Positions 15,927-64,000 of a DNA stretch of 64,000 nt are shown one piece after another; position 1 is the stretch's first letter; each line of letters starts with the position of its first letter. The notes beneath the pieces were generated by a model, which ran no database searches, was not told the origin of the DNA, and worked only from the letters and a program-made list of their open reading frames with translations. The DNA comes from Defluviimonas aquaemixtae (GTDB lineage Bacteria; Pseudomonadota; Alphaproteobacteria; Rhodobacterales; Rhodobacteraceae). The stretch is taken from contig NZ_OMOQ01000001.1 of the NCBI RefSeq assembly GCF_900302475.1, positions 1,798,001 to 1,862,000 of the forward strand. Direction: 5' to 3'. The translations under genes were made by a program, and so were the position numbers.

Positions 15927-17321
15927 TCACTCCGCCGAGCCTTGTCCGGGCCAGAGTGTGGTATCCGGATGAAACTGCGACCAGGCGAACCAAAATGCCT
16001 GATGGCTCCCAAGGTCGGTGCCGTCTGCGTCAACGGCCTTTATGCCGCCAGCATCCAGTTGAAGACGGACGTTCTCGAACGCGATCTCATCACCGTCGCT
16101 CAATGCCAAGAACGCCTGACTGCGTTGGAACGCCACAGGCTTGCCGGACGCCGTGACAATGCCGATGATATCCTCGTGTATGGGCAAGCGCGGATCGACA
16201 TCGCCGACTGGGAATATCGGCCCGTTGGCATCACGGCCGTTGCGAAAATCGAAATCGCGACCAAGCGCCAGTTCTTCCACGAGCACCGTCGTCTGAGGGT
16301 ATGTCCTTTTCCACGTTCCCCAATCGGTGGTCACGACAGAGGCCTGTTCCAGTTGCAGGTTCCGTTCCGCAAGAGGCCCGGTCACCGCCTTGCCGAGGAA
16401 CGTGTCAAACACCGAAAAGGTGTTCACGTCGTACATCACCTTGTTAGAACGAATTAGCAGCCCCGATGTTCGCAGAACGGGCCGCGCAATTCCCTCCGGC
16501 AGCCGGTCGGTGAAATAGGCCTGTGCCGCACCGCACAAAGTGCAGTATGGAATGCCGAGGTCACGTCCGCCCAAGGTATCGTTGACCATTTCACGCACCT
16601 CCATGATGCGCCGCGGATACGCCCGATACTCTCCGTTCACCTCAATGCCGAAGACGATATCGTCGTCCTTGAGCCAGGTTGCATCTTCGGCGCTGCTGAC
16701 TTCGGGATTGTCGGCCGCGGGAATGCAGTTGCACGGCTCGTCTGTCGTATCATAGGCGCGATCGTCTATGGGCACGCCGCCCCAGGACACGAGCCGCCAG
16801 TCGATGTCGCCTTCAACAATGATACGGTCCCAGCCGGGAACAAGGCTTGTGAAGATGGTGCGCTTGGCCCGCAGGTAATCAGGGGGCGCCGGGATGTCCC
16901 ATGCAATGAGATGGTCCGTCACAACCCCCCACTGATTTTGGTTCGGTACGTCTATGTCCAACAATGTCGTGGCAGCACCGGCTAGTTCTCGGCTTAGCGG
17001 TTCGCCGCCGGCAAATCGCATCAGATCACTTATGATCCAGACGAGCCGGGGATCTTTTGACTCAGCGATTTCACCGAGGGCGGCCGATTGATCTTGCCCC
17101 CAGGTTGACTCGATCGCACTCTCGAGAAAGGCCACCTGCACCGCAGCCTGCAAGGCTTCGGAAAGCGGGCCGTCCGGAACTGCGGGGGGAGTGCCAAATT
17201 GCTCGACCACGTAGTCTGGTAGCGATGTCGTTTCTTGAGCACGCAAGGCACCGGGCCAAAACAACGCAAACGCAACCATTGACGCAACTGCGACGATCCG
17301 GGGGTGAGCTTTCAAAGCCAT
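15927..17321 (-). CDS. DUF3179 domain-containing exported protein
   Basis: A 464-residue protein with a signal peptide (cleaved near LRA-QE, residue 28). The DUF3179 domain covers roughly 190-455. It is marked by a Cys-rich segment EPCNCIPAADNP, the PRRIMEVREMVND motif, and IPYCTLCGAAQAYF, whose paired Cys recalls a haem or metal site; late in the domain come SQAFLALSDGD and HQAFWFAWSQF. DUF3179 proteins are widespread, exported and of unknown function. The N-terminal 150 residues are an Ala-rich helical region with no recognised fold. It stands alone, with no operon partners close by. Confidence 0.85.
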   Translation of the reverse strand: MALKAHPRIVAVASMVAFALFWPGALRAQETTSLPDYVVEQFGTPPAVPDGPLSEALQAAVQVAFLESAIESTWGQDQSAALGEIAESKDPRLVWIISDLMRFAGGEPLSRELAGAATTLLDIDVPNQNQWGVVTDHLIAWDIPAPPDYLRAKRTIFTSLVPGWDRIIVEGDIDWRLVSWGGVPIDDRAYDTTDEPCNCIPAADNPEVSSAEDATWLKDDDIVFGIEVNGEYRAYPRRIMEVREMVNDTLGGRDLGIPYCTLCGAAQAYFTDRLPEGIARPVLRTSGLLIRSNKVMYDVNTFSVFDTFLGKAVTGPLAERNLQLEQASVVTTDWGTWKRTYPQTTVLVEELALGRDFDFRNGRDANGPIFPVGDVDPRLPIHEDIIGIVTASGKPVAFQRSQAFLALSDGDEIAFENVRLQLDAGGIKAVDADGTDLGSHQAFWFAWSQFHPDTTLWPGQGSAE

Positions 17322-54121: not shown

Positions 54122-54211
54122 GGAGAGGTGCCGGAGCGGTCGAACGGGGCGGTCTCGAAAACCGTTGTGGGCGTGAGTCCACCCAGGGTTCGAATCCCTG
54201 TCTCTCCGCCA
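54122..54211 (+). tRNA. tRNA-Ser (anticodon CGA)
   Basis: A 90-base class II tRNA: acceptor GGAGAGG with TCTCTCC, anticodon loop TCTCGAAAA (CGA), long variable arm (TTGTGGGCGTGAGTCCACCC), T-loop GGTTCGAATCC and encoded CCA (54209-54211). The integrase remnant starts three to four bases after CCA, which suggests this tRNA was an attachment site. Confidence 0.97.
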
Positions 54212-54593: not shown

Positions 54594-55868
54594 TCAACTT
54601 CTGCCTTTCCACGGCACGAGAAGATTCTCAGCTTTTCTCATCAGGATGTCGATAGCAAAGCCGATCACCCCGATCAGGATGATCCCCATCAACACGATAT
54701 CGGTGAGTTGGAACTTCGAGGCCACCATGATCATCATGCCCGCACCTTCCGATGCCGCAACAAGCTCTGCAGCCACGACGGTGCCCCAGCACACACCCAT
54801 TGCCACGCGTGCCCCGGTGAAAATCTCCGGTAATGAGTTGGGCATGATCACGTGGCGCATGATCTGAAGTTTGCTTGCCCCGAGTGAGTACGCCGCGTGT
54901 ACCTTCGAGATATTCACCCCAGACACGCCTGCCCGGGCCGAAATCGCCATGATCCAGAGCGAGGCCAGGAATAACAGAATGATCTTTCCTGTTTCACCGA
55001 TGCCAAACCAGATAATAACCAACGGGATCAGTGCCAGCGGCGGCACGGGGCGCATGAATTCGACGATCGGTTCGAACCAACCGCGGAACCAGTCGGACAA
55101 CCCCATCGCGTACCCAAGCGGGATGCCCAGGAGCGCGCCAAAGAAGAAACCCGCGATCACCCGGAATAGCGAGTAACCAAGGTGCTTCCACAGCGTGCTG
55201 TCGCGGTAGCCCTCATTAGCAATTTCAACCACGCGGCCCACTACTGCCTCCGGAGGCGGCAACCAAATCGGCTCCATTTGCAGACCCGAGGGCGGGGCAA
55301 AGCTGATTGCCCCCTTATCGGTCAGCGCGAAGCGGCCGGCCGGCGTTCTGACTTCGCCACCATCGTTGATCTCAATCCCGTCAATAGCCACCACGTGCGC
55401 GCCGTCGTTGCGTTTGGCCTCGTCGTTCTTGTCAAACAAGATCGTTGTCGACCGCGAGGCGCTCATCGCCACCGCGTCGTTCTTGGCGATGCCCTCGCCC
55501 TCATCGACGTCGAAATTTTCGGTTGTTTCACCGAAATCGAAAACACGAACGTGCACAGTGGCATCATCACGAGCGCCGTCCGCTGTCTCGAGGGTATAGG
55601 TAAAGGAGGTGTCGCCAACAAACGGACCCGGCGCATGCAGGAATCCAGGCACCCAGTCTGAGCCGGTGAACGACCCCCATATGAGAAATATTGTCGCCAC
55701 CGACACGATCGAGGCGGTTCGGTTTGAAGTTACAGCGCTTTCGTCGCCAAACGTCACCGTCTTAAGCGAGGTGTAGTCGTGCACGGTGCGATGCACGAGG
55801 AACCGGACGATCAGAAATGACAGCACGAAGACCGACACATAGACGGCAAGGATGAACAAACCGATCAT
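54594..55868 (-). CDS. TauC-like ABC permease with extra periplasmic domain
   Basis: A 424-residue permease. The C-terminal ~200 residues are a BPD_transp_1 domain (HLGYSLFRVIAGFFFGALLG, WIMAISARAGVSGVN, AYSLGASKLQIMRHVIMP) of the NitT/TauT type. TauC and SsuC are about 250-280 residues. Here about 190 residues precede it: one TM span, a short loop and a beta-rich stretch (SFTYTLETADGARDDATVHV) that looks like a periplasmic immunoglobulin-like insert. The overlap with the ATPase (ATGA, four bases) places both in one operon. Ligand inferred to be a sulfonate or related compound. Confidence 0.87.
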   Translation of the reverse strand: MIGLFILAVYVSVFVLSFLIVRFLVHRTVHDYTSLKTVTFGDESAVTSNRTASIVSVATIFLIWGSFTGSDWVPGFLHAPGPFVGDTSFTYTLETADGARDDATVHVRVFDFGETTENFDVDEGEGIAKNDAVAMSASRSTTILFDKNDEAKRNDGAHVVAIDGIEINDGGEVRTPAGRFALTDKGAISFAPPSGLQMEPIWLPPPEAVVGRVVEIANEGYRDSTLWKHLGYSLFRVIAGFFFGALLGIPLGYAMGLSDWFRGWFEPIVEFMRPVPPLALIPLVIIWFGIGETGKIILLFLASLWIMAISARAGVSGVNISKVHAAYSLGASKLQIMRHVIMPNSLPEIFTGARVAMGVCWGTVVAAELVAASEGAGMMIMVASKFQLTDIVLMGIILIGVIGFAIDILMRKAENLLVPWKGRS

Positions 55869-56674
55869 TGCGGTGCGGCCTCCGCGCGGCCCATGATTTC
55901 TTCTTCCATGTCCCAGATCATTTCCAGGATCTCTTCGCGGGTCTCGGAATAGCCTTTGGCGTGTTTCACTTCGCGCAGATCGGCACCTACGCCCAAATCG
56001 GCAAAAGGCAGATTGTATTCCTTGTGGATGCGCCCAGGGCGAGGCGCCATGACAAGCAGGCGTTCGCCCAACAGCAATGCTTCTTCCACAGAGTGGGTGA
56101 TCAGGATGATTGTCTTGCCGGTTTCTTTCCAGAGCTTCAGCACGAGGCCCTGCATCTTCTCGCGCGTGAGCGCATCAAGCGCGCCGAGCGGTTCGTCCAT
56201 CAAGATCACGTCCGGATCATTGGCCAGGCAGCGGGCCAGGGCTACGCGCTGCTGCATGCCGCCGGACAGTTCATATATCGCCTTGTCCTTGAACTCGCCC
56301 AAGCCGGTGACGTCGAGCAGGTGATCCACATGCTCGCCCCATTGTGCCTCGCGCTGCCCCTTCATACGCGGACCGAAGCTGACATTCTCGCGAACATCCA
56401 TCCATTCAAATAGCGCGCCCTGCTGAAACACCATGCCGCGTTTGGCATCCGGACCAGTGACGTTTTGCCCGTTCAGCACAATCCGCCCCGAGGTTGGAGC
56501 GAGAAAGCCAGCGACGATGTTCAACAAGGTGGTCTTGCCGCAGCCAGAGGGCCCCAGCACACTCATCAGCTCGCCCGTCTTGAGTTCTAGCGAGACTTCC
56601 TTGAGCGCCTGAACATGAGTGCCATTCGGAAGATCGAATCGCATCGATACGTTTTCGATTGAAAGCGCGGACAC
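55865..56674 (-). CDS. TauB-like ABC importer ATPase
   Basis: A 269-residue ATP-binding subunit of the NitT/TauT group: Walker A GPSGCGKTT, signature LSGGMQQR, Walker B VILMDEPLGALD, and ILITHSVEEA. It starts MSALSIENVSMRF. It overlaps the permease gene by four bases and lies 71 bases after the binding-protein gene. Confidence 0.92.
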   Translation of the reverse strand: MSALSIENVSMRFDLPNGTHVQALKEVSLELKTGELMSVLGPSGCGKTTLLNIVAGFLAPTSGRIVLNGQNVTGPDAKRGMVFQQGALFEWMDVRENVSFGPRMKGQREAQWGEHVDHLLDVTGLGEFKDKAIYELSGGMQQRVALARCLANDPDVILMDEPLGALDALTREKMQGLVLKLWKETGKTIILITHSVEEALLLGERLLVMAPRPGRIHKEYNLPFADLGVGADLREVKHAKGYSETREEILEMIWDMEEEIMGRAEAAPQ

Positions 56675-56745
56675 AAGATCTCCAGACCTGACATTAAGGA
56701 ACGATGGCGCGAGAATCCCTAGTCCCGCGCCACGCCACTTTTTTC

Positions 56746-57750
56746 CTACATGCCGCCAGCAGCGGTCAGCGGGCCGGCGTTCACCGCGTTCTCGTAGGTT
56801 TCGAGTGCAGTGTCGATCGAGCCTGCTTCCACGAACACATCTGCAACGCCCTTCATGAACTCTTGCGCGCCACCGTCAAGCCAAGTGGAGCTCAATTGCT
56901 CTTCAATCGTCGGGAACGCGAAAGTGGAAATGGTTTCCATTGTCGCCTGCTCATCCATGCCCGCATCCTTGGCGATAAGTGGCAGCATCTCGGCATGGTT
57001 GGCCGGATCGGCCCACATGGCGTTCGCATCTGCCGTCACCTTGAGGAACTTGGCAACCAGGTCACCGTTCTCCGCCACCCAGGCGGCTGGTCCCGAGGTT
57101 ACATCGAACACAAGTATGCCAAGTTCGGTCTTCTCGGCGCCGCTCAGAAGCACGTTGCCATGTTCAAGCGCGCGACGCAGCGAACCACCCCAGCCGCAGA
57201 ACATGTCGACAGCGCCCTGGGCAATCGCCGCGGAACCATCGGGCGGATCCATGTCGACCACGTCCATGCTGGCGACATCGACACCGAAATGAGTCATCTG
57301 CTTGATGAAGCCGTAGTGTGCAGCAGTGCCGAGCGGTACGGCGACCTTCTTGCCAGCCAGTTCACCGGCGTTGGACTTGTCGATCTCAAGTTCGGCGCGC
57401 ACGACGCAGTTGTCGTTTTCAGCATAGGAGACGGCAACGTCAAGGATTTGCAGGTCCTGCCCGGCGGACGTCGCCACCACGAAGGGAGGCACGCCTTGGC
57501 TTACTGACAGCTGAACGTCACCGGAGGCCATGGCAGCCGACATCTTCACGCCGCTCTCGAAACTGACCCAATTGATGTCCACACCAAGGGCTTCTTCGTA
57601 AGTGCCCATCTGCTTGGCATATTCAAATGGCATCGGCCATTCGAGGAAATACGCGACGGTGATCTCTTCGGCGAAGGCCTGCGACGCAGACAACGTCGCC
57701 GCGCTGGCCGCTAGCGCGGCAATGATCTTGTTTTTCGTCTTGGATTTCAT
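56746..57750 (-). CDS. TauA-like periplasmic binding protein
   Basis: A 334-residue NitT/TauT-type binding protein with a signal peptide (cleaved near AFA-EE, residue 28). Family landmarks are ITVAYFLEWPMPFEYAKQMG, VQLSVSQGVPPFVVATSAG, KKVAVPLGTAAHYGF and CGWGGSLRRALEHG. TauA relatives bind sulfonates such as taurine; the aromatic pair here is not enough to name a ligand. First gene of the importer operon, divergent from the LysR gene. Confidence 0.9.
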   Translation of the reverse strand: MKSKTKNKIIAALAASAATLSASQAFAEEITVAYFLEWPMPFEYAKQMGTYEEALGVDINWVSFESGVKMSAAMASGDVQLSVSQGVPPFVVATSAGQDLQILDVAVSYAENDNCVVRAELEIDKSNAGELAGKKVAVPLGTAAHYGFIKQMTHFGVDVASMDVVDMDPPDGSAAIAQGAVDMFCGWGGSLRRALEHGNVLLSGAEKTELGILVFDVTSGPAAWVAENGDLVAKFLKVTADANAMWADPANHAEMLPLIAKDAGMDEQATMETISTFAFPTIEEQLSSTWLDGGAQEFMKGVADVFVEAGSIDTALETYENAVNAGPLTAAGGM

Positions 57751-58300
57751 AGTTCACTCCCTGTGGATTTGTTGATCGCTCCACCTTGCCGGCAGATTAG
57801 CAGCTAAAGTTGGACGAGCCCATCTTGCAACGCCGATATGCATTCCCCCCCCTGTGGGCACCCGGGCTGTGCCCGGAAAACGTGGTGGCTGCGAATTCCA
57901 GGTATCGCTCCAAGCCGTCATCCGGCCGTTTCGGCCAATTCTGACCGCCTGTTTGCCACCGAGCAGCCATAGCCTTGCTCTATCTGAAGATTGGCCTCCA
58001 AACTAGCCACATTTGCCGAAGACCAGTTCATCTGGGTGATGATCTCGTCACCTCAGTCGTCTGCCTGGACAGTCGCGGCAAACCCCATGGCGCAAGCAGA
58101 TGCCAGAATCAGACTATCATGCGCTTCTCCACTTTGATCCGTTGCAGCACCGGACGGCGCACGATCATCTATCGGCTGGCAAGCTTCCACACATTCCTCA
58201 TCTGTCAGACGCAATATTTTCTATTCCTATTTTTTGACATCATTGCTGTTAGAATATATGAATAACGTGACGCCGTCGAAGGACTTTGGTACGTTGCCCA
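57751..58300. other. Divergent intergenic region, TauA and LysR genes
   Basis: A 550-base gap with no gene seen. It contains the two promoters and probably LysR sites. A hairpin-capable string (GGGCAC-CCGGGCT-GTGCCC, 57856-57874) is the only obvious structure. The right end is AT-rich (TATTTTCTATTCC, about 58208-58228). Confidence 0.5.
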
Positions 58301-59275
58301 ATGTCTCACCAAACCGCACCCAAGGATCTAAGCCTGAAATGGCTTGAGCTGTTCCAAGTCTGCGCACGAAAGGGCTCGCTGCGGGCGGCGGCGGCAGAAA
58401 CCGGTCTCACAGTCAGCACCGTTTCGCACCATCTTCGCAGTCTCGAAGGCCATTTGGGGGTTGAACTGTTCAACCACTCCCGCAGGCCTATGGTGCTGAC
58501 GCCAAAAGGGCAGGTTTTTCTGCGGAACATCGACGATGCGCTATTCTCCATTCGCAAAGCCAAGGCCGAAGCCTCGGCGGGGAGTATTTCCGGGGCCAGC
58601 TATTTGAGGCTGGGCACCATCGAAGACTTCGACAGCGATATCATTCCCGAACTGGCCGTGTTCCTGTCGGCACAAATGCCTTACTGCGATTTCCTGTACC
58701 ACACCGATTCCAGCCACTCGATCATCGAGATGCTGCGCAACCGTCAACTGGACCTCGGTATTACCAGCAATCCGACCGAGCGGCTGCGCGATTTGCAGGA
58801 CCGCCCACTGCTGCGCGATCCGTTTGTTGTGGTTCTTCCGGTGGGCAACGAGCAGTCGCTGTCGGATATTGCCGAGGGCCGGACCAAACTGCCGTTCCTG
58901 CGTTTCTCCAGCAACCTGATCATTGCCCGCCAGATCGAAAGCCAACTGCGTCGTTTGGGCATGAGTCTGACGCACAGGTTCGAATGCGGCAACAACCAGA
59001 CGCTCATGGCGATGGTGGCAGCCGGGGCCGGCTGGACCATTACCACCCCGCTGCTGTTTTCCCGGGCACGGCGGTTTCATTCGAGGCTGCGGATGCACCG
59101 CTTTCCGGGCAAGAGCTTCGCCCGTACATTGGCGATCGTCACCACGCCGGACTGTTCCCGGTCGCTCATCGATCTCGTCGACAGCAAGGTACGCACCTTG
59201 ATCAACACTCATGCGATTTCTCCGTTTCATCGGAGTTCTCCTTGGCTGGTGGACAGCTTCAAGCTGATCACCTAG
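58301..59275 (+). CDS. LysR-family transcriptional regulator
   Basis: A 324-residue regulator. The winged helix covers the first ~65 residues: LELFQVCARKGSLRAAAAE, TVSTVSHHLRSLEGHLGVELF. The effector domain follows (YLRLGTIEDFDSDI ... MVAAGAGWTITTPLL). It is divergent from the TauABC-like operon and next to the MttB gene tail, so it may control both. The ATG at 58301 is preferred over a TTG at 58286. Confidence 0.9.
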   Translation: MSHQTAPKDLSLKWLELFQVCARKGSLRAAAAETGLTVSTVSHHLRSLEGHLGVELFNHSRRPMVLTPKGQVFLRNIDDALFSIRKAKAEASAGSISGASYLRLGTIEDFDSDIIPELAVFLSAQMPYCDFLYHTDSSHSIIEMLRNRQLDLGITSNPTERLRDLQDRPLLRDPFVVVLPVGNEQSLSDIAEGRTKLPFLRFSSNLIIARQIESQLRRLGMSLTHRFECGNNQTLMAMVAAGAGWTITTPLLFSRARRFHSRLRMHRFPGKSFARTLAIVTTPDCSRSLIDLVDSKVRTLINTHAISPFHRSSPWLVDSFKLIT

Positions 59276-59368
59276 CGAACCGGCACATGCACGGCGTTGG
59301 ATTTGGCGGCCAAGGTGAGGTTCAGAGGAAGTTGAACCGCTTGCGGATTGCCCGATCCTGTCCGTCGG

Positions 59369-60838
59369 TCAGGTAGGCAGGGTGATGATGGCATAGAATC
59401 TCCCGCGCCCGAACACGTGCCCGTGCCCAGGCGTCATGCGCGCCCCGTTCAGCCCAGATGCGCGGCTCGTCCCGATCAGCAAGCGACGGGTAGAAGTATC
59501 CCGCTCCATGGCCGCAAAGGTGTGACGACCGCCCAGGAAGTGGCCTTCGCCCAGCACGGCGTCGCGGATAGCGTCAATGCCCAGGGTTTCCTCGTTGACC
59601 TCGACCCCGCGCAGGGCCCGGTATGTGTGCGAGTGCATCTCGTCGTCCAACACGAATGCCTCGAAGCTGACCCCCAGCAAAGATGCCGTCATGCCGGAGC
59701 TTTCATAAATCAGGTTGCCACCTGCCAGCGCCGCCGCCAGCGACGTGATCCCCTTCTCCATCCCGTGTTGCGCGTCGATCGCCTTGGCGTCGGTCATCGA
59801 ACAGGCGACGCCGGAGGGCAGACCAAGCCAGTTCGACAGTTGCGCCGACGCCGCGTTCAGGACTGCGGCCTCGCCGCTGCCCCCTGAAAACGCGCCGGTT
59901 CGCAGGTCACTCACAAGCGGCCAGTTGGAAAAAACCGTCGGAAAGCCGGGCTGGATCGCGTGCACCATGACCAAGCTCGCGCGCGTTTCGGCCAGGGATT
60001 GGGCAAGAAACCCGGCCAGTGTTGCCGGTGCAGTGGCACCGGCCTGCGCCGCTGTGATGCAGGAAATGGGAATATTGTGCTTGATGCACTCATAAACCAC
60101 ATCAACGGCATCTTCACCGAAGCGCATCGGCGAAACGACCGGACTGATATGGGCCTTCATGAAAGGGCGCTTGGCGAACTCGCCCGGGCCCCCGGCGGCA
60201 ATGTCGGGCATCTGGACGATCGGCTCTAGATGTTCGGCCAGGGTAAAGCTTGTCGCTGTCGGTCTGGTCGTGTTCTTCAGCAGCGCGTAGACGGTGTTCG
60301 CGTCCAGATCGAATCTGTCCGGTACATCCGTTGCGACGCAGCAGCGGGTGAACCAGCTGACATTGGTCAATACGTCCTGAAGCCGGGTGAAGTCGTGCAG
60401 ATCCTCAAGCGTCGATGGCCGATAGTGACCGCTGTCCAGGTCCAGCGTCTGCACCGCCGCACCGCCGGTTCCGAAATGCACCCGATTGCCGCCAACCTCG
60501 ATTGAGCGACTCTCATCGCGCCCGTGCAGGACAAAGGTTCTGGCCGCCTGATCGACCGCCTTCTCAACCAGAGCTGGCGATAACAGCACCCTTCCGAAGC
60601 CGTCATCCTTTGCGCCAATGGCCAGCAGATCGGCATGAAGACGTTCCGGGACCTCTCCCATCCCCAGTCTTTCCAGCAGATCCAGCGCCGCGCCATAGAT
60701 CCGCTGTATCTCCGCTTCGGTCAGGGGTTTGTACGCGCCGCCAATCTGGCCGGGCGGGCATGGATTGAACTTGGGCTTGGCCGCACGCTGCGCCAGCCGC
60801 TCTCGTCGGCCGCTCCTTGTGCCCGGCTGCCCGGCCAT
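59369..60838 (-). CDS. MttB-family methyltransferase with 3' frameshift
   Basis: A 489-residue frame of the trimethylamine methyltransferase (MttB) superfamily: YKPLTEAEIQRIYGAALDLL, then HFGTGGAAVQTLD, DIAAGGPGEFAKRPF and SGSGEAAVLNAASAQ. No pyrrolysine codon is present, so it is the non-Pyl (MtgB/glycine-betaine-like) type. At about 59498, one base appears missing: the expected MERDYFYPSLADR lies in the next frame, which runs on to a stop at 59322-59324 with the normal family tail. So the native gene is 59322-60838; the shown frame ends in 46 aberrant residues. It is divergent from the demethylase gene. Such enzymes need a corrinoid partner; none is in the window. Confidence 0.85.
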   Translation of the reverse strand: MAGQPGTRSGRRERLAQRAAKPKFNPCPPGQIGGAYKPLTEAEIQRIYGAALDLLERLGMGEVPERLHADLLAIGAKDDGFGRVLLSPALVEKAVDQAARTFVLHGRDESRSIEVGGNRVHFGTGGAAVQTLDLDSGHYRPSTLEDLHDFTRLQDVLTNVSWFTRCCVATDVPDRFDLDANTVYALLKNTTRPTATSFTLAEHLEPIVQMPDIAAGGPGEFAKRPFMKAHISPVVSPMRFGEDAVDVVYECIKHNIPISCITAAQAGATAPATLAGFLAQSLAETRASLVMVHAIQPGFPTVFSNWPLVSDLRTGAFSGGSGEAAVLNAASAQLSNWLGLPSGVACSMTDAKAIDAQHGMEKGITSLAAALAGGNLIYESSGMTASLLGVSFEAFVLDDEMHSHTYRALRGVEVNEETLGIDAIRDAVLGEGHFLGGRHTFAAMERDTSTRRLLIGTSRASGLNGARMTPGHGHVFGRGRFYAIITLPT

Positions 60839-60962
60839 GCCGGATCCTCTGCTTATTGCGTTGGAAGGCTAGCCAATGGCGTTCACCCGCTGGAATGCAA
60901 CGCTTGCCACGTTATTGCGGGCTATTCGTAAATATCATTCGAATTGTTCTCAAACAGCTATC

Positions 60963-60981
60963 CGCAACGTTGCGAACGCAA
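60963..60981. promoter_or_regulatory. Overlapping dyads in the MttB/demethylase divergent region
   Basis: CGCAACGTTGCG (60963-60974) is a perfect 12-base palindrome and overlaps TTGCG-AA-CGCAA (60970-60981). Both lie in the 185-base gap between the divergent genes, a likely regulator site. Confidence 0.5.
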
Positions 60982-61023
60982 GGCGCGACCATATCACGAA
61001 CAGTGGATGTTGGAGGCACTCCA

Positions 61024-63459
61024 ATGAAATCGCGCACCAAGGTCGTGGTCATCGGCGGCGGCATTGCCGGCTGCTCGACGCTCTATCATCTCACCCAAGA
61101 AGGCTGGAGCGATGTAGTATTGGTGGAACGCAACGAACTGACCAGCGGGACGACATGGCATTCGGCCGCGCAGGTGACGAATTTCGGCATGAACCAGACT
61201 ATGGTCGGTTTGAAGACCCATTCGATCAATCTTTACAAGGAGCTGGCTAGCGACCCGGACTACCCGATCAACTACCACCACGGTGATGGCGGTATCCGCC
61301 TGGCCAATTCCGAAGAGCAGATGCAGGGCTATCGCCATTTCGCCTCGATGGCGCGGGGAATGGATGTGCGTTTCGAGGTGATCGATGCCGAGGAATGCGC
61401 CCGCCGGCACCCGCTGATTTCGACAGACAACCTGATCGGCGGTCTTTGGGATCCGCTGGATGGCGACATCGACCCGGCGCAGCTGTGCCAAGCGCTGGCG
61501 CGTCGCGCCCGCAAGGCGGGGGCCGAGGTCTATCGCAACACACCGGTGATCGGGCTCACCCAGCAAAGAGACCACACGTGGACAGTGCACACCGAGCTTG
61601 GCGATATTGATTGTGACATCGTGGTAAACGCTGGTGGCTATCGCGTCAACGAGGTCGGCGCGATGATGGGGGTTCATCATCCAGTCGCCTCGATGGAGCA
61701 TCAGTACTTCCTGACCGAAGAAATCCCGGCCATCAAGGAGGCAGGGCACCGGATGCCGCTGATCCGCTGCCCGATCAGCGACTATTATTGCCGCCAGGAA
61801 AAGAACGGGCTCTTGGTCGGGTTCTACGAACAGGGCTGCAAGACCTGGGGCATGGACGGGATCGATCCGAATTTCGTGAACGCGCTTTGTCCGAATGATC
61901 TGGACCGGGTGGCTGATGTGCTCGAAGGCGCATTTGAACGCATGCCGGCGCTTATGGAGGTGGGCATCCACACCGTGGTCAACGGCCCGATCACCTATAC
62001 CATCGACGGCGCGCCGCTGGTGGGGCCGATCCCGGGCAAGCGCAATGCTTTCTGCATCATAGGCCTGCGCGCAGGTCTCGGCGAGGGCGGCGGCCATGGC
62101 TGGCTGCTGGCGCAGCAGATCGTCCATGGCGAGGCCTGCTACGACACCTGGTGCATCGACCCGCGTCGGTTTGCCGGCCACGCCAATGTCGAACTGACCG
62201 CGCTCAAGGCGGTCGAAGACTATCAGAACGAATTCCGCTTCCACTTTCCGCATGAACACCGCCCCGCCGGGCGCCCGGCCAAGACCACCCCGCTGACGCC
62301 TTTACTGGCCGCAGAAGGCGCTGAGTTCACGGTGGTCAACGGCTGGGAGCGGGTGGACTACATCAGGCCGTCGGCTGACTTCCATCCCTCGCTGTCGTTT
62401 CATTTTGACGAGGCCTTCGACATGGTCGCGGCCGAGGTGAGGAACGTGCATGAGAATGTGGGGCTGTGCGAGGTCAACGGTTTCAACCGCTTCGAGATCA
62501 CCGGCACGGACCGCCATGCCTTTCTTGACCGCATGTTCTGCGGCAACGTCACCAAACGGGCGGGTCGTGTCGGACTTGGCTATTTGCTGAACCAACATGG
62601 CATGGTCAAGGGTGAAGCCACGGTCGCAAACCTGCCCGCCAGCGACCGCGGCCCCGAGCGGGCCTGGTACGGTTCGGCAGCGGCCAGCGAGTTGCATGAC
62701 ATGGATTGGCTTACTCAGCATGCCCGCGACGGAGAAGATGTGCAGATTCGCAGTCTGACCAATGATCAGACCATCCTGGTTCTGGCCGGCCCGAAGGCGC
62801 GCGACGTACTTTCCTCCTGTGCCCGGGGCGACTGGTCGAAACAGGCGTTTCCTTGGCTAAGCGTGCGCGAGTGCTTTGTAGGCTTTGCTCCGGCCACGGT
62901 GCTGGGGGTCAGCTTCTCGGGCGAACTCGCCTACGAAATCCATGTCCCCAACGCATCTCTCTATGCCGCCTGGCTGGCGCTCCGACAGGCGGGTGCCGCT
63001 CACGGCATGAAGCTGTTCGGAGCGCGCGCGGTCGAATCCATGCGGATCGAAAAAGGCTTTCTTCACTGGAAGGCCGAAATTCTCACAGAGTTTGACCCGT
63101 TTGAGACCTCACTCGATCGGTTCGTGAATCTGGAGAAGCCTGATTTTATCGGCAAGGACGCCCTGCGGAACCGACAGGGCGAGGGGCTGAGCAAGAAGCT
63201 TGTGATGCTGAAGATCGACACGACGCACGCTCCGGCCCGTGGCGGTGCCTCGCTGGTGCAGGGCGATACGGTCGTCGGCACCGCCACCTCGGGCGACTGG
63301 GGCCACCGGGTTGGCATGAACCTGGCCTTTGGCTTCGTTGAGTCCGAACTGGCAGGAGTTGGCAGTACCATGCAACTCGACCTCTGCGGCGATCTCGTCA
63401 GCGCCGAAGTGATTTCACCTTCACCTTACGATCCCGACCATACCCGCATCCGTGGATAG
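61024..63459 (+). CDS. Dimethylglycine/sarcosine-dehydrogenase-like demethylase
   Basis: An 811-residue FAD- and folate-dependent amine demethylase. N-terminal dinucleotide fold (VVVIGGGIAGCSTLYHL) with the covalent-FAD motif TTWHSAA (His46) as in DMGDH. The C-terminal ~380 residues are GcvT-like, with ITGTDRHAFLDRMFCGNV, VLGVSFSGELAYEIHVP and VESMRIEKGFLHW, where tetrahydrofolate would take the formaldehyde unit. The ATG at 61024 has GGAGG upstream. It is divergent from the MttB gene, so the two are probably regulated together. Substrate not shown: a dimethyl- or methylamine derivative. Confidence 0.9.
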   Translation: MKSRTKVVVIGGGIAGCSTLYHLTQEGWSDVVLVERNELTSGTTWHSAAQVTNFGMNQTMVGLKTHSINLYKELASDPDYPINYHHGDGGIRLANSEEQMQGYRHFASMARGMDVRFEVIDAEECARRHPLISTDNLIGGLWDPLDGDIDPAQLCQALARRARKAGAEVYRNTPVIGLTQQRDHTWTVHTELGDIDCDIVVNAGGYRVNEVGAMMGVHHPVASMEHQYFLTEEIPAIKEAGHRMPLIRCPISDYYCRQEKNGLLVGFYEQGCKTWGMDGIDPNFVNALCPNDLDRVADVLEGAFERMPALMEVGIHTVVNGPITYTIDGAPLVGPIPGKRNAFCIIGLRAGLGEGGGHGWLLAQQIVHGEACYDTWCIDPRRFAGHANVELTALKAVEDYQNEFRFHFPHEHRPAGRPAKTTPLTPLLAAEGAEFTVVNGWERVDYIRPSADFHPSLSFHFDEAFDMVAAEVRNVHENVGLCEVNGFNRFEITGTDRHAFLDRMFCGNVTKRAGRVGLGYLLNQHGMVKGEATVANLPASDRGPERAWYGSAAASELHDMDWLTQHARDGEDVQIRSLTNDQTILVLAGPKARDVLSSCARGDWSKQAFPWLSVRECFVGFAPATVLGVSFSGELAYEIHVPNASLYAAWLALRQAGAAHGMKLFGARAVESMRIEKGFLHWKAEILTEFDPFETSLDRFVNLEKPDFIGKDALRNRQGEGLSKKLVMLKIDTTHAPARGGASLVQGDTVVGTATSGDWGHRVGMNLAFGFVESELAGVGSTMQLDLCGDLVSAEVISPSPYDPDHTRIRG

Positions 63460-63629
63460 GCACATCATGAACGACGTTCACTGCGTAATCCTGCGGTCTT
63501 AAGAGTGATCGCGGTTATTCGGGTATGGTCACGCGCTGAATTCGGTGCCACTCCCATACAACGCGGAAATCTGCTCGTAGCCCGGCGGCCCTCGCGTTGC
63601 CGGCGCCACCCAACGAAAAGGACCTCGAA

Positions 63630-64000
63630 ATGCACCTGTCACGTTTTCCCCGAGTCCATCTCGCGCATTTGCCGACCCCTCTGGAGCCGATGAAACGCTT
63701 GTCCGGGGAACTCGGTATTGATCTGTGGATCAAGCGCGACGACTGCACAGGAATGTCGACCGGCGGCAACAAGACGCGCAAGCTGGAATTCCTGATGGGT
63801 GAGGCGTTGGAACATGGCGCCGACATGGTCATGACCCAAGGCGCGACACAATCCAATCATGCCCGCCAGACTGCCGCCTTTGCGGCCAAGCTGGGTCTGA
63901 CATGCCACATTCTGTTGGAAGATCGCACCGGCTATAACTACGCCAACTACAAGGGCAACGGCAACGTCCTGCTGGACCACCTCCACGGCGCGACGACCGA
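63630..64000 (+). CDS. L-cysteate sulfo-lyase/D-cysteine desulfhydrase, 5' part
   Basis: The first 123 residues of a PLP enzyme cut by the window end. The start [37 protein letters not shown] (PLP Lys48) and [15 protein letters not shown] are typical of the CuyA/DcyD group, related to ACC deaminase. CuyA desulfonates L-cysteate to pyruvate, sulfite and ammonia in Roseobacter-type bacteria; DcyD acts on D-cysteine. An AAGGAC ribosome site precedes the ATG. It follows the demethylase gene on the same strand. Confidence 0.85.

Follow-up and report, generated by a model that had tools for sequence, protein, structure and literature searches.

What compound would a bacterium degrade with a taurine-type importer, two kinds of N-demethylase and a cysteate lyase encoded side by side? 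This question is raised by a gene cluster in Defluviimonas aquaemixtae that runs over the 3' edge of the window, the 64,000-nucleotide stretch analyzed here (positions 1798001-1862000 of contig C1 of a 4.2 Mb genome). The original prediction for this DNA named a TauABC-like importer, a LysR regulator, an MttB-like methyltransferase gene, a DMGDH-like flavoprotein and the start of cuyA, and all of these genes are present. Our tentative answer, on which we remain almost evenly divided, is that the genes of the cluster are regulated together and serve to catabolize an N-methylated C3 aminosulfonate. The likeliest such compound would be N-methylated cysteinolate, i.e., 2-amino-3-hydroxypropane-1-sulfonate carrying one to three N-methyl groups.

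In the proposed pathway, the substrate would enter via the TauABC-like system (a ProXWV-type system in other genomes) and its N-methyl groups would be removed onto tetrahydrofolate by the DMGDH-like flavoprotein, with the first methyl of a quaternary amine taken by MttB where this is intact. An HpsN-type enzyme would then carry out a four-electron oxidation of the CH2OH group to COOH, giving cysteate, which CuyB would racemize and CuyA would cleave to pyruvate, ammonia and sulfite. We infer this substrate, and likewise the order of demethylation and oxidation; N-methylated cysteinolate was chosen as the start because it provides the shortest chemistry through the HpsN-type enzyme, CuyB and CuyA. 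Cysteinolic acid is described as a widespread algal solute in the available excerpt of PMC8703288.

The genes that accompany DMGDH in other genomes carry much of this reading. We surveyed 100 loci among the matches listed (at least 80 genome contigs, 9 further relatives, 10 plasmid records and the window), and neighbor counts refer to the 77 loci in which DMGDH has 6 kb of flanking sequence on either side, over a span of ~10 kb (10.5 kb). HpsN was the best-linked sulfonate-gene partner of DMGDH, occurring in 41 of the 77 loci versus 16 for CuyA; CuyB was present in 16, MttB in 39, TauA in 28 and ProX in 20. The 41 linked HpsN include 29 of the window type (≥73% like the window's), and the comparison with CuyA is 29 versus 16 if only these are counted. 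HpsN occurred without CuyA or CuyB in 25 of the 77 loci. Conversely, CuyA or CuyB was found in 18. All but two of these also had HpsN within the 10.5 kb span, and for one of the two exceptions (L142) it lies just outside. The more frequent linkage of HpsN points to an amino-alcohol sulfonate of the cysteinolate type. The original prediction of N-methylated sulfonate breakdown ending at cysteate is retained, with cysteate betaine now the less likely substrate. Its concern that homologous clusters might consistently lack the lyase proved partly justified, as CuyA accompanies DMGDH in the 16 loci mentioned and is not found within ~10 kb in the other 61.

These counts also bear on a pathway in which cysteate betaine, or cysteate with fewer N-methyl groups, is demethylated and cleaved by CuyA, with HpsN serving for other C3 sulfonates. 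The usual substrates of DMGDH enzymes are N-methyl alpha-amino acids, which would suit such a pathway, and among 94 loci the next labeled gene after DMGDH is CuyA in 10 and CuyB in 2. However, HpsN itself occupies that position in 5 loci, and both its more frequent linkage to DMGDH and the near absence of CuyA/CuyB loci without HpsN argue against this explanation, which we consider unlikely.

The three sulfonate genes lie together in D. aquaemixtae. The cuyA gene begins on the plus strand at ~63630 and continues past the window edge at 64000 to window-equivalent position 64643. It is followed on the same strand by cuyB (window-equivalent 64755-65471) and by the hpsN-type gene (window-equivalent 65476-66753), which begins four bases after cuyB and is itself followed by a fatty acid desaturase gene. 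The original prediction had raised the possibility that the gene set continues beyond 64000, and the DMGDH strand does run on with cuyB and the hpsN-type gene. Based on family membership, CuyA is assigned as a predicted cysteate sulfo-lyase: it scored 528.6 bits versus the equivalog cut-off of 450 for NCBIfam NF052482, and fell below the cut-offs of the D-cysteine desulfhydrase models (309 vs. 429, 282 vs. 469 and 281 vs. 610 bits). On these scores, the lyase is predicted to be a cysteate enzyme, as originally expected, and not a D-cysteine enzyme. CuyB likewise passed its equivalog cut-off (NCBIfam NF052483, 281 vs. 190 bits).

Among solved structures, the nearest relatives of the window's HpsN-type protein are the dehydrogenases of R-2,3-dihydroxypropane-1-sulfonate (DHPS), 8wwe and 8v35. 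The GRY(A/S)H motif, the Zn ligands and the catalytic and sulfonate-binding residues (His, Asp, Lys) of HpsN were taken from the available part of PMC11382572, and residues of the Ruegeria pomeroyi HpsN are also reported in that of PMC11131964. Across the 35 rows used from the DMGDH-linked clade, the window's included, all of these features are invariant, the motif reading GRYSH. Oxidation of a sulfonate alcohol by this enzyme is thus a prediction from conserved residues. Neither hpsO nor hpsP was seen among the genes annotated around the window's hpsN. In a tree of 62 HpsN rows, a single clade holds 33 of the 40 DMGDH-linked rows with a Shimodaira-Hasegawa-like approximate likelihood ratio test (SH-aLRT) value of 99. 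A second clade contains the R. pomeroyi HpsN and HpsO/P-linked copies together with six DMGDH-linked rows, and the remaining DMGDH-linked row, from Pseudomonas, pairs with CpHpsN on long branches. Five of the seven CuyB-linked HpsN without DMGDH form a third clade, with two apart. Nine further rows, for which the extracted piece was too short for the tree, entered the residue comparison; three of them matched the window's protein at 82-83% and the other six at 62-64%. The source genome also encodes HpsN at another locus, next to an HpsP-like Zn-dependent alcohol dehydrogenase and with a DctP-type binding protein in the vicinity.

The association of CuyB with HpsN extends beyond the DMGDH loci. 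CuyB was detected in 19 of 61 relatives' genomes, with HpsN ≤6 kb away in 14 of the 19 (from coordinates), and several of these HpsN-adjacent copies had no labeled DHPS genes alongside; HpsN in such places would therefore feed cysteate. At four loci (L217, L218, L219 and L222) we observed LysR-HpsN-CuyB sets with no labeled DHPS genes, DMGDH or CuyA beside them, and these are possible cysteinolate or cysteate loci. In R. pomeroyi DSS-3, SPO_RS20085 (L133:14549-15247) scored 276 bits against the CuyB cut-off of 190 and adjoins and comes after the DMGDH ortholog SPO_RS20090. The CuyB gene of this bacterium is called unknown in the available part of PMC11382572, and our analysis names SPO_RS20085 as a candidate.

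A second line of evidence concerns regulation. Using the 200-base regions preceding DMGDH from 98 loci, with the window excluded, we trained a 21-base motif model, and the same core, TTTCGA.TTTTT, was recovered from random starts. Matches of ≥8 bits were found in 89 of 99 DMGDH promoters versus 3% of shuffles, a comparison that is in-sample except for the window. Outside the training set, sites of ≥11.5 bits preceded 21 of 31 tauA and 16 of 23 proX genes, versus 3.4% of 557 random stretches. Only three such sites occur on either strand of the 64 kb window. The highest-scoring (58221-58241, plus strand, 14.0 bits) is located between tauA and lysR, 491 bases upstream of tauA. The runner-up in the 19.9 kb around the cluster (60934-60954, plus strand, 11.8 bits) lies between mttB and the DMGDH-like gene, upstream of the latter. 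The third, at 16237 (11.6 bits), is outside the cluster. In other loci, too, the tauA site is mostly between tauA and the divergent LysR gene (58286-59275 on the plus strand in the window; PF00126 and PF03466), and we infer that the LysR protein binds the motif and controls the genes. The motif was found upstream of cuyA in only 3 of 22 and of hpsN in only 1 of 49 cases, which fits a position within an operon and gives no support in itself. That one motif precedes both the DMGDH and the importer genes supports the expectation that importer and demethylase share their regulation.

The distribution of the genes across genomes was examined in 198 genomes of the family, representing 197 genera (E ≤1e-250 for DMGDH, ≤1e-140 for HpsN). 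The DMGDH ortholog was present in 66, HpsN in 98 and both in 57; HpsN thus occurred in 57 of 66 DMGDH carriers versus 41 of 132 non-carriers (Fisher 6e-14, a value that ignores relatedness and habitat). In 7 of the 57, HpsN was ≤10 kb from DMGDH on the same contig (from coordinates), with ~0.3 expected. Where the DMGDH locus had no local sulfonate genes, all 31 genomes searched had HpsN elsewhere, although 26 of the 31 had only copies that were 61-66% like the window's.

Could the cluster simply combine two unrelated osmolyte modules, with DMGDH/MttB acting on a common N-methyl osmolyte and CuyA/CuyB/HpsN on cysteate, cysteinolate or DHPS? The 34 of 77 DMGDH loci with none of CuyA, CuyB and HpsN nearby would be expected in that case. 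So would the cuyA-(aminotransferase)-cuyB-tauABC-hpsN runs without DMGDH that we found in two relatives (a third has the run without hpsN); the TauA proteins of these runs match the window's at only 30-33%. In addition, CuyB was not enriched with the DMGDH ortholog, being present in 6 of 10 carriers with ~5 expected (37 family members among the 61 relatives). Nevertheless, most DMGDH-linked HpsN form a separate clade, HpsN-DMGDH linkage is above chance, and the demethylase and importers have a promoter motif in common. The gene set also recurs on a Pseudomonas plasmid, where one run comprises CuyA, HpsN, an aminotransferase, an importer of the tripartite ATP-independent periplasmic (TRAP) type, CuyB and DMGDH, and continues with an electron transfer flavoprotein, PurU, FolD and a betaine-type importer. 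On balance, we consider two independent modules a doubtful explanation. In the DMGDH-less cuyA runs, the best motif match was just before cuyA in L216 and L224 and not in L215, and in eight other DMGDH-less loci scanned the best matches (8 to 15 bits) showed no association with cuyA.

Under the reading we favor, the DMGDH-like protein would remove the N-methyl groups. Its gene lies within a long open reading frame (60817-63459, plus strand), the true start being placed at ~61021 because orthologs align only from around residue 60-70 of that frame. The protein has the Pfam domains DAO, FAO_M, GCV_T and GCV_T_C, matches rat DMGDH (4p9s) at 503 bits, keeps the motif TWH with its FAD-linking His and is expected to transfer methyl groups onto tetrahydrofolate. 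The PurU, FolD and electron transfer flavoprotein genes of the Pseudomonas run fit a flavoprotein loading methyls on folate. Members of its ortholog group are 56-100% identical, and paralogs are at 41% or less. Dozens of FAD-domain residues common to 99 orthologs are rare or missing in 12 paralogs (those of 20 paralog loci that gave a long enough reading). One ortholog-specific residue, Arg350 in the loop GLRAG, should by analogy sit near the flavin. At six loci (L134, L140, L057, L065, L066 and L075) the DMGDH ortholog is followed by genes for a GlxA regulator, an acyl-CoA dehydrogenase, an acetate-CoA ligase and a carnitinyl-CoA dehydratase.

The mttB gene (59369-60838, minus strand) is of the MttB-like corrinoid methyltransferase type. 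Its product exceeds the PF06253 cut-off (296 vs. 25 bits) and falls below that of the trimethylamine methyltransferase equivalog TIGR02369 (295 vs. 525 bits). The window copy changes frame at ~59500, near residue 446 and just after AAMERD, and the PF06253 match is split over two frames. Among 50 mttB copies, all 48 others that reach this point are in frame (47 with YFYP, one with FVYP); the one further copy ends before it at a contig end. As another frame of the window copy still encodes the conserved C-terminus and the other copies are intact, the break is either recent or an assembly error. It would fit loss of the gene where TauABC is the importer, or again an assembly error. The original prediction had assigned MttB the first demethylation; the gene family is indeed present, but it is optional (39 of the 77 loci) and frameshifted in this genome. 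Leisingera methylohalidivorans, by comparison, has the complete gene set with mttB in frame. The prediction also stated that a corrinoid protein must be encoded elsewhere. Elsewhere in the genome there is one MtgC-like protein with the corrinoid domain PF02607, its gene close to one for a homocysteine S-methyltransferase, compared with ten MttB-family genes in all.

The type of importer appeared to vary with MttB. Among 45 loci with one importer type, 18 had ProX and MttB, 1 ProX without MttB, 22 TauA without MttB and 4, including the window, TauA and MttB. The association (Fisher 7e-8) was not significant when relatedness was taken into account, as independent pairs of the tree gave median p values of 0.125 and 0.06, and we therefore regard MttB with ProXWV-type importers and its general absence beside TauABC as a pattern and not a result.

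The importer of the window is encoded on the minus strand by tauC (54594-55868), tauB (55865-56674) and tauA (56746-57750). A TauABC-like importer might indicate that N-methyl- or N,N-dimethyltaurine is imported and demethylated by DMGDH, and xsc is near in two loci, L102 and L142. However, all three proteins missed their taurine equivalog cut-offs: the TauA-like periplasmic binding protein scored 143.5 versus 304 bits (taurine_ABC_bnd), the TauB-like ATP-binding cassette (ABC) ATPase (PF00005) 267 versus 357 and the TauC-like ABC permease (PF00528) 238 versus 342. Taurine breakdown is also not known to require HpsN, CuyA or CuyB, and we consider N-methylated taurine very improbable as the substrate. 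The best solved relative of the TauA-like protein is the taurine-binding protein 6ssy, at 75 bits. The TauC model covers only residues 198-423 of the permease, which has ~190 extra N-terminal residues; the permease cluster has a median length of 422 residues in 23 loci. The original prediction treated these genes as one segment, which they are, but they do not form a single operon, since they lie in four strand blocks (tauCBA minus, lysR plus, mttB minus, DMGDH-cuyA plus). An Rfam scan of 19.9 kb around the cluster returned a single match, a tRNA; a tRNA-Ser (cga) at 54122-54211 adjoins the tauC end.

Several observations weigh against N-methylated cysteinolate as the substrate of a dedicated unit. 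In addition to the 34 loci without sulfonate genes, identity (61-63%) places 11 of the 41 linked HpsN with the DHPS type, and another is the long-branch Pseudomonas plasmid copy. In the family sample, only two of the seven linked copies are window-type, and the other five match the window's at 61-65%. CuyB was present in only 6 of the 31 genomes whose DMGDH loci have no sulfonate genes. The co-occurrence of HpsN and DMGDH may in part reflect a marine habitat, and the HpsN active-site residues fail to tell OH from NH2 substrates. The motif also matched in the DHPS locus L223 (12.0 bits) and in L217 away from HpsN and CuyB (14.7 bits), and is therefore not exclusive. Some DMGDH orthologs adjoin other modules, i.e., guanidino, acyl-CoA or dimethylsulfoniopropionate (DMSP) genes, and the window's frameshifted mttB, near its 3' end, speaks against the simple form of the pathway. 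No paper on N-methylated cysteinolate was found in the literature searched, which was drawn mostly from outside the subscription journals. DMGDH loci without sulfonate genes, the varied neighbors and the shaky MttB-importer pattern in particular keep our confidence restrained.

A possible extension, which we regard as somewhat less probable, is that the Rhodobacteraceae have a modular pathway for a family of N-methylated cysteinolates. Its core would be an HpsN-type cysteinolate dehydrogenase, CuyB and CuyA. DMGDH would extend this core to mono- and dimethyl forms, and MttB plus a betaine-type importer would extend it to the trimethyl form, all in one LysR-type regulon. If true, N-methylated cysteinolates would be as yet unrecognized compounds in seawater. 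The favored reading would itself provide genes for the conversion of cysteinolate to cysteate, a step without genes in the literature searched, and would predict a class of N-methylated sulfonates used across many genera, since 66 of the 198 family genomes encode the DMGDH ortholog.

Each gene family of the cluster is known, and their combination was not found described in that literature, in line with the original prediction; nor were cysteinolate catabolic genes or the R. pomeroyi DMGDH ortholog. A close known system is cysteate degradation by CuyA and CuyB in R. pomeroyi, which has the same families and the same expected end products, and to which the cluster adds N-demethylases and an HpsN-type dehydrogenase. 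The R. pomeroyi cysteate importer is CuyTUVW according to the available part of PMC10130141, unlike the TauABC-like importer here. DHPS degradation by HpsN/HpsO/HpsP (available parts of PMC11382572 and PMC11131964) has in common the HpsN-type Zn/NAD dehydrogenase with its GRYSH motif, but the annotated cluster genes include no HpsO, HpsP or sulfolactate dehydrogenase, and their HpsN belongs to a separate clade. The ProX of L136 matches RnDmpX of the DMSP importer DmpXWV (structure 7YLE; PMC10030565, available part) at 436 bits; unlike in that system, the ProX-type importer here, a putative carrier of the N-methylated substrate, stands beside MttB and DMGDH genes. Finally, the demethylation of glycine betaine and dimethylglycine by the MtgB/MttB family and DMGDH follows the same stepwise logic with the same families, whereas the demethylases of this cluster are linked to sulfonate genes and its DMGDH belongs to a separate ortholog group.

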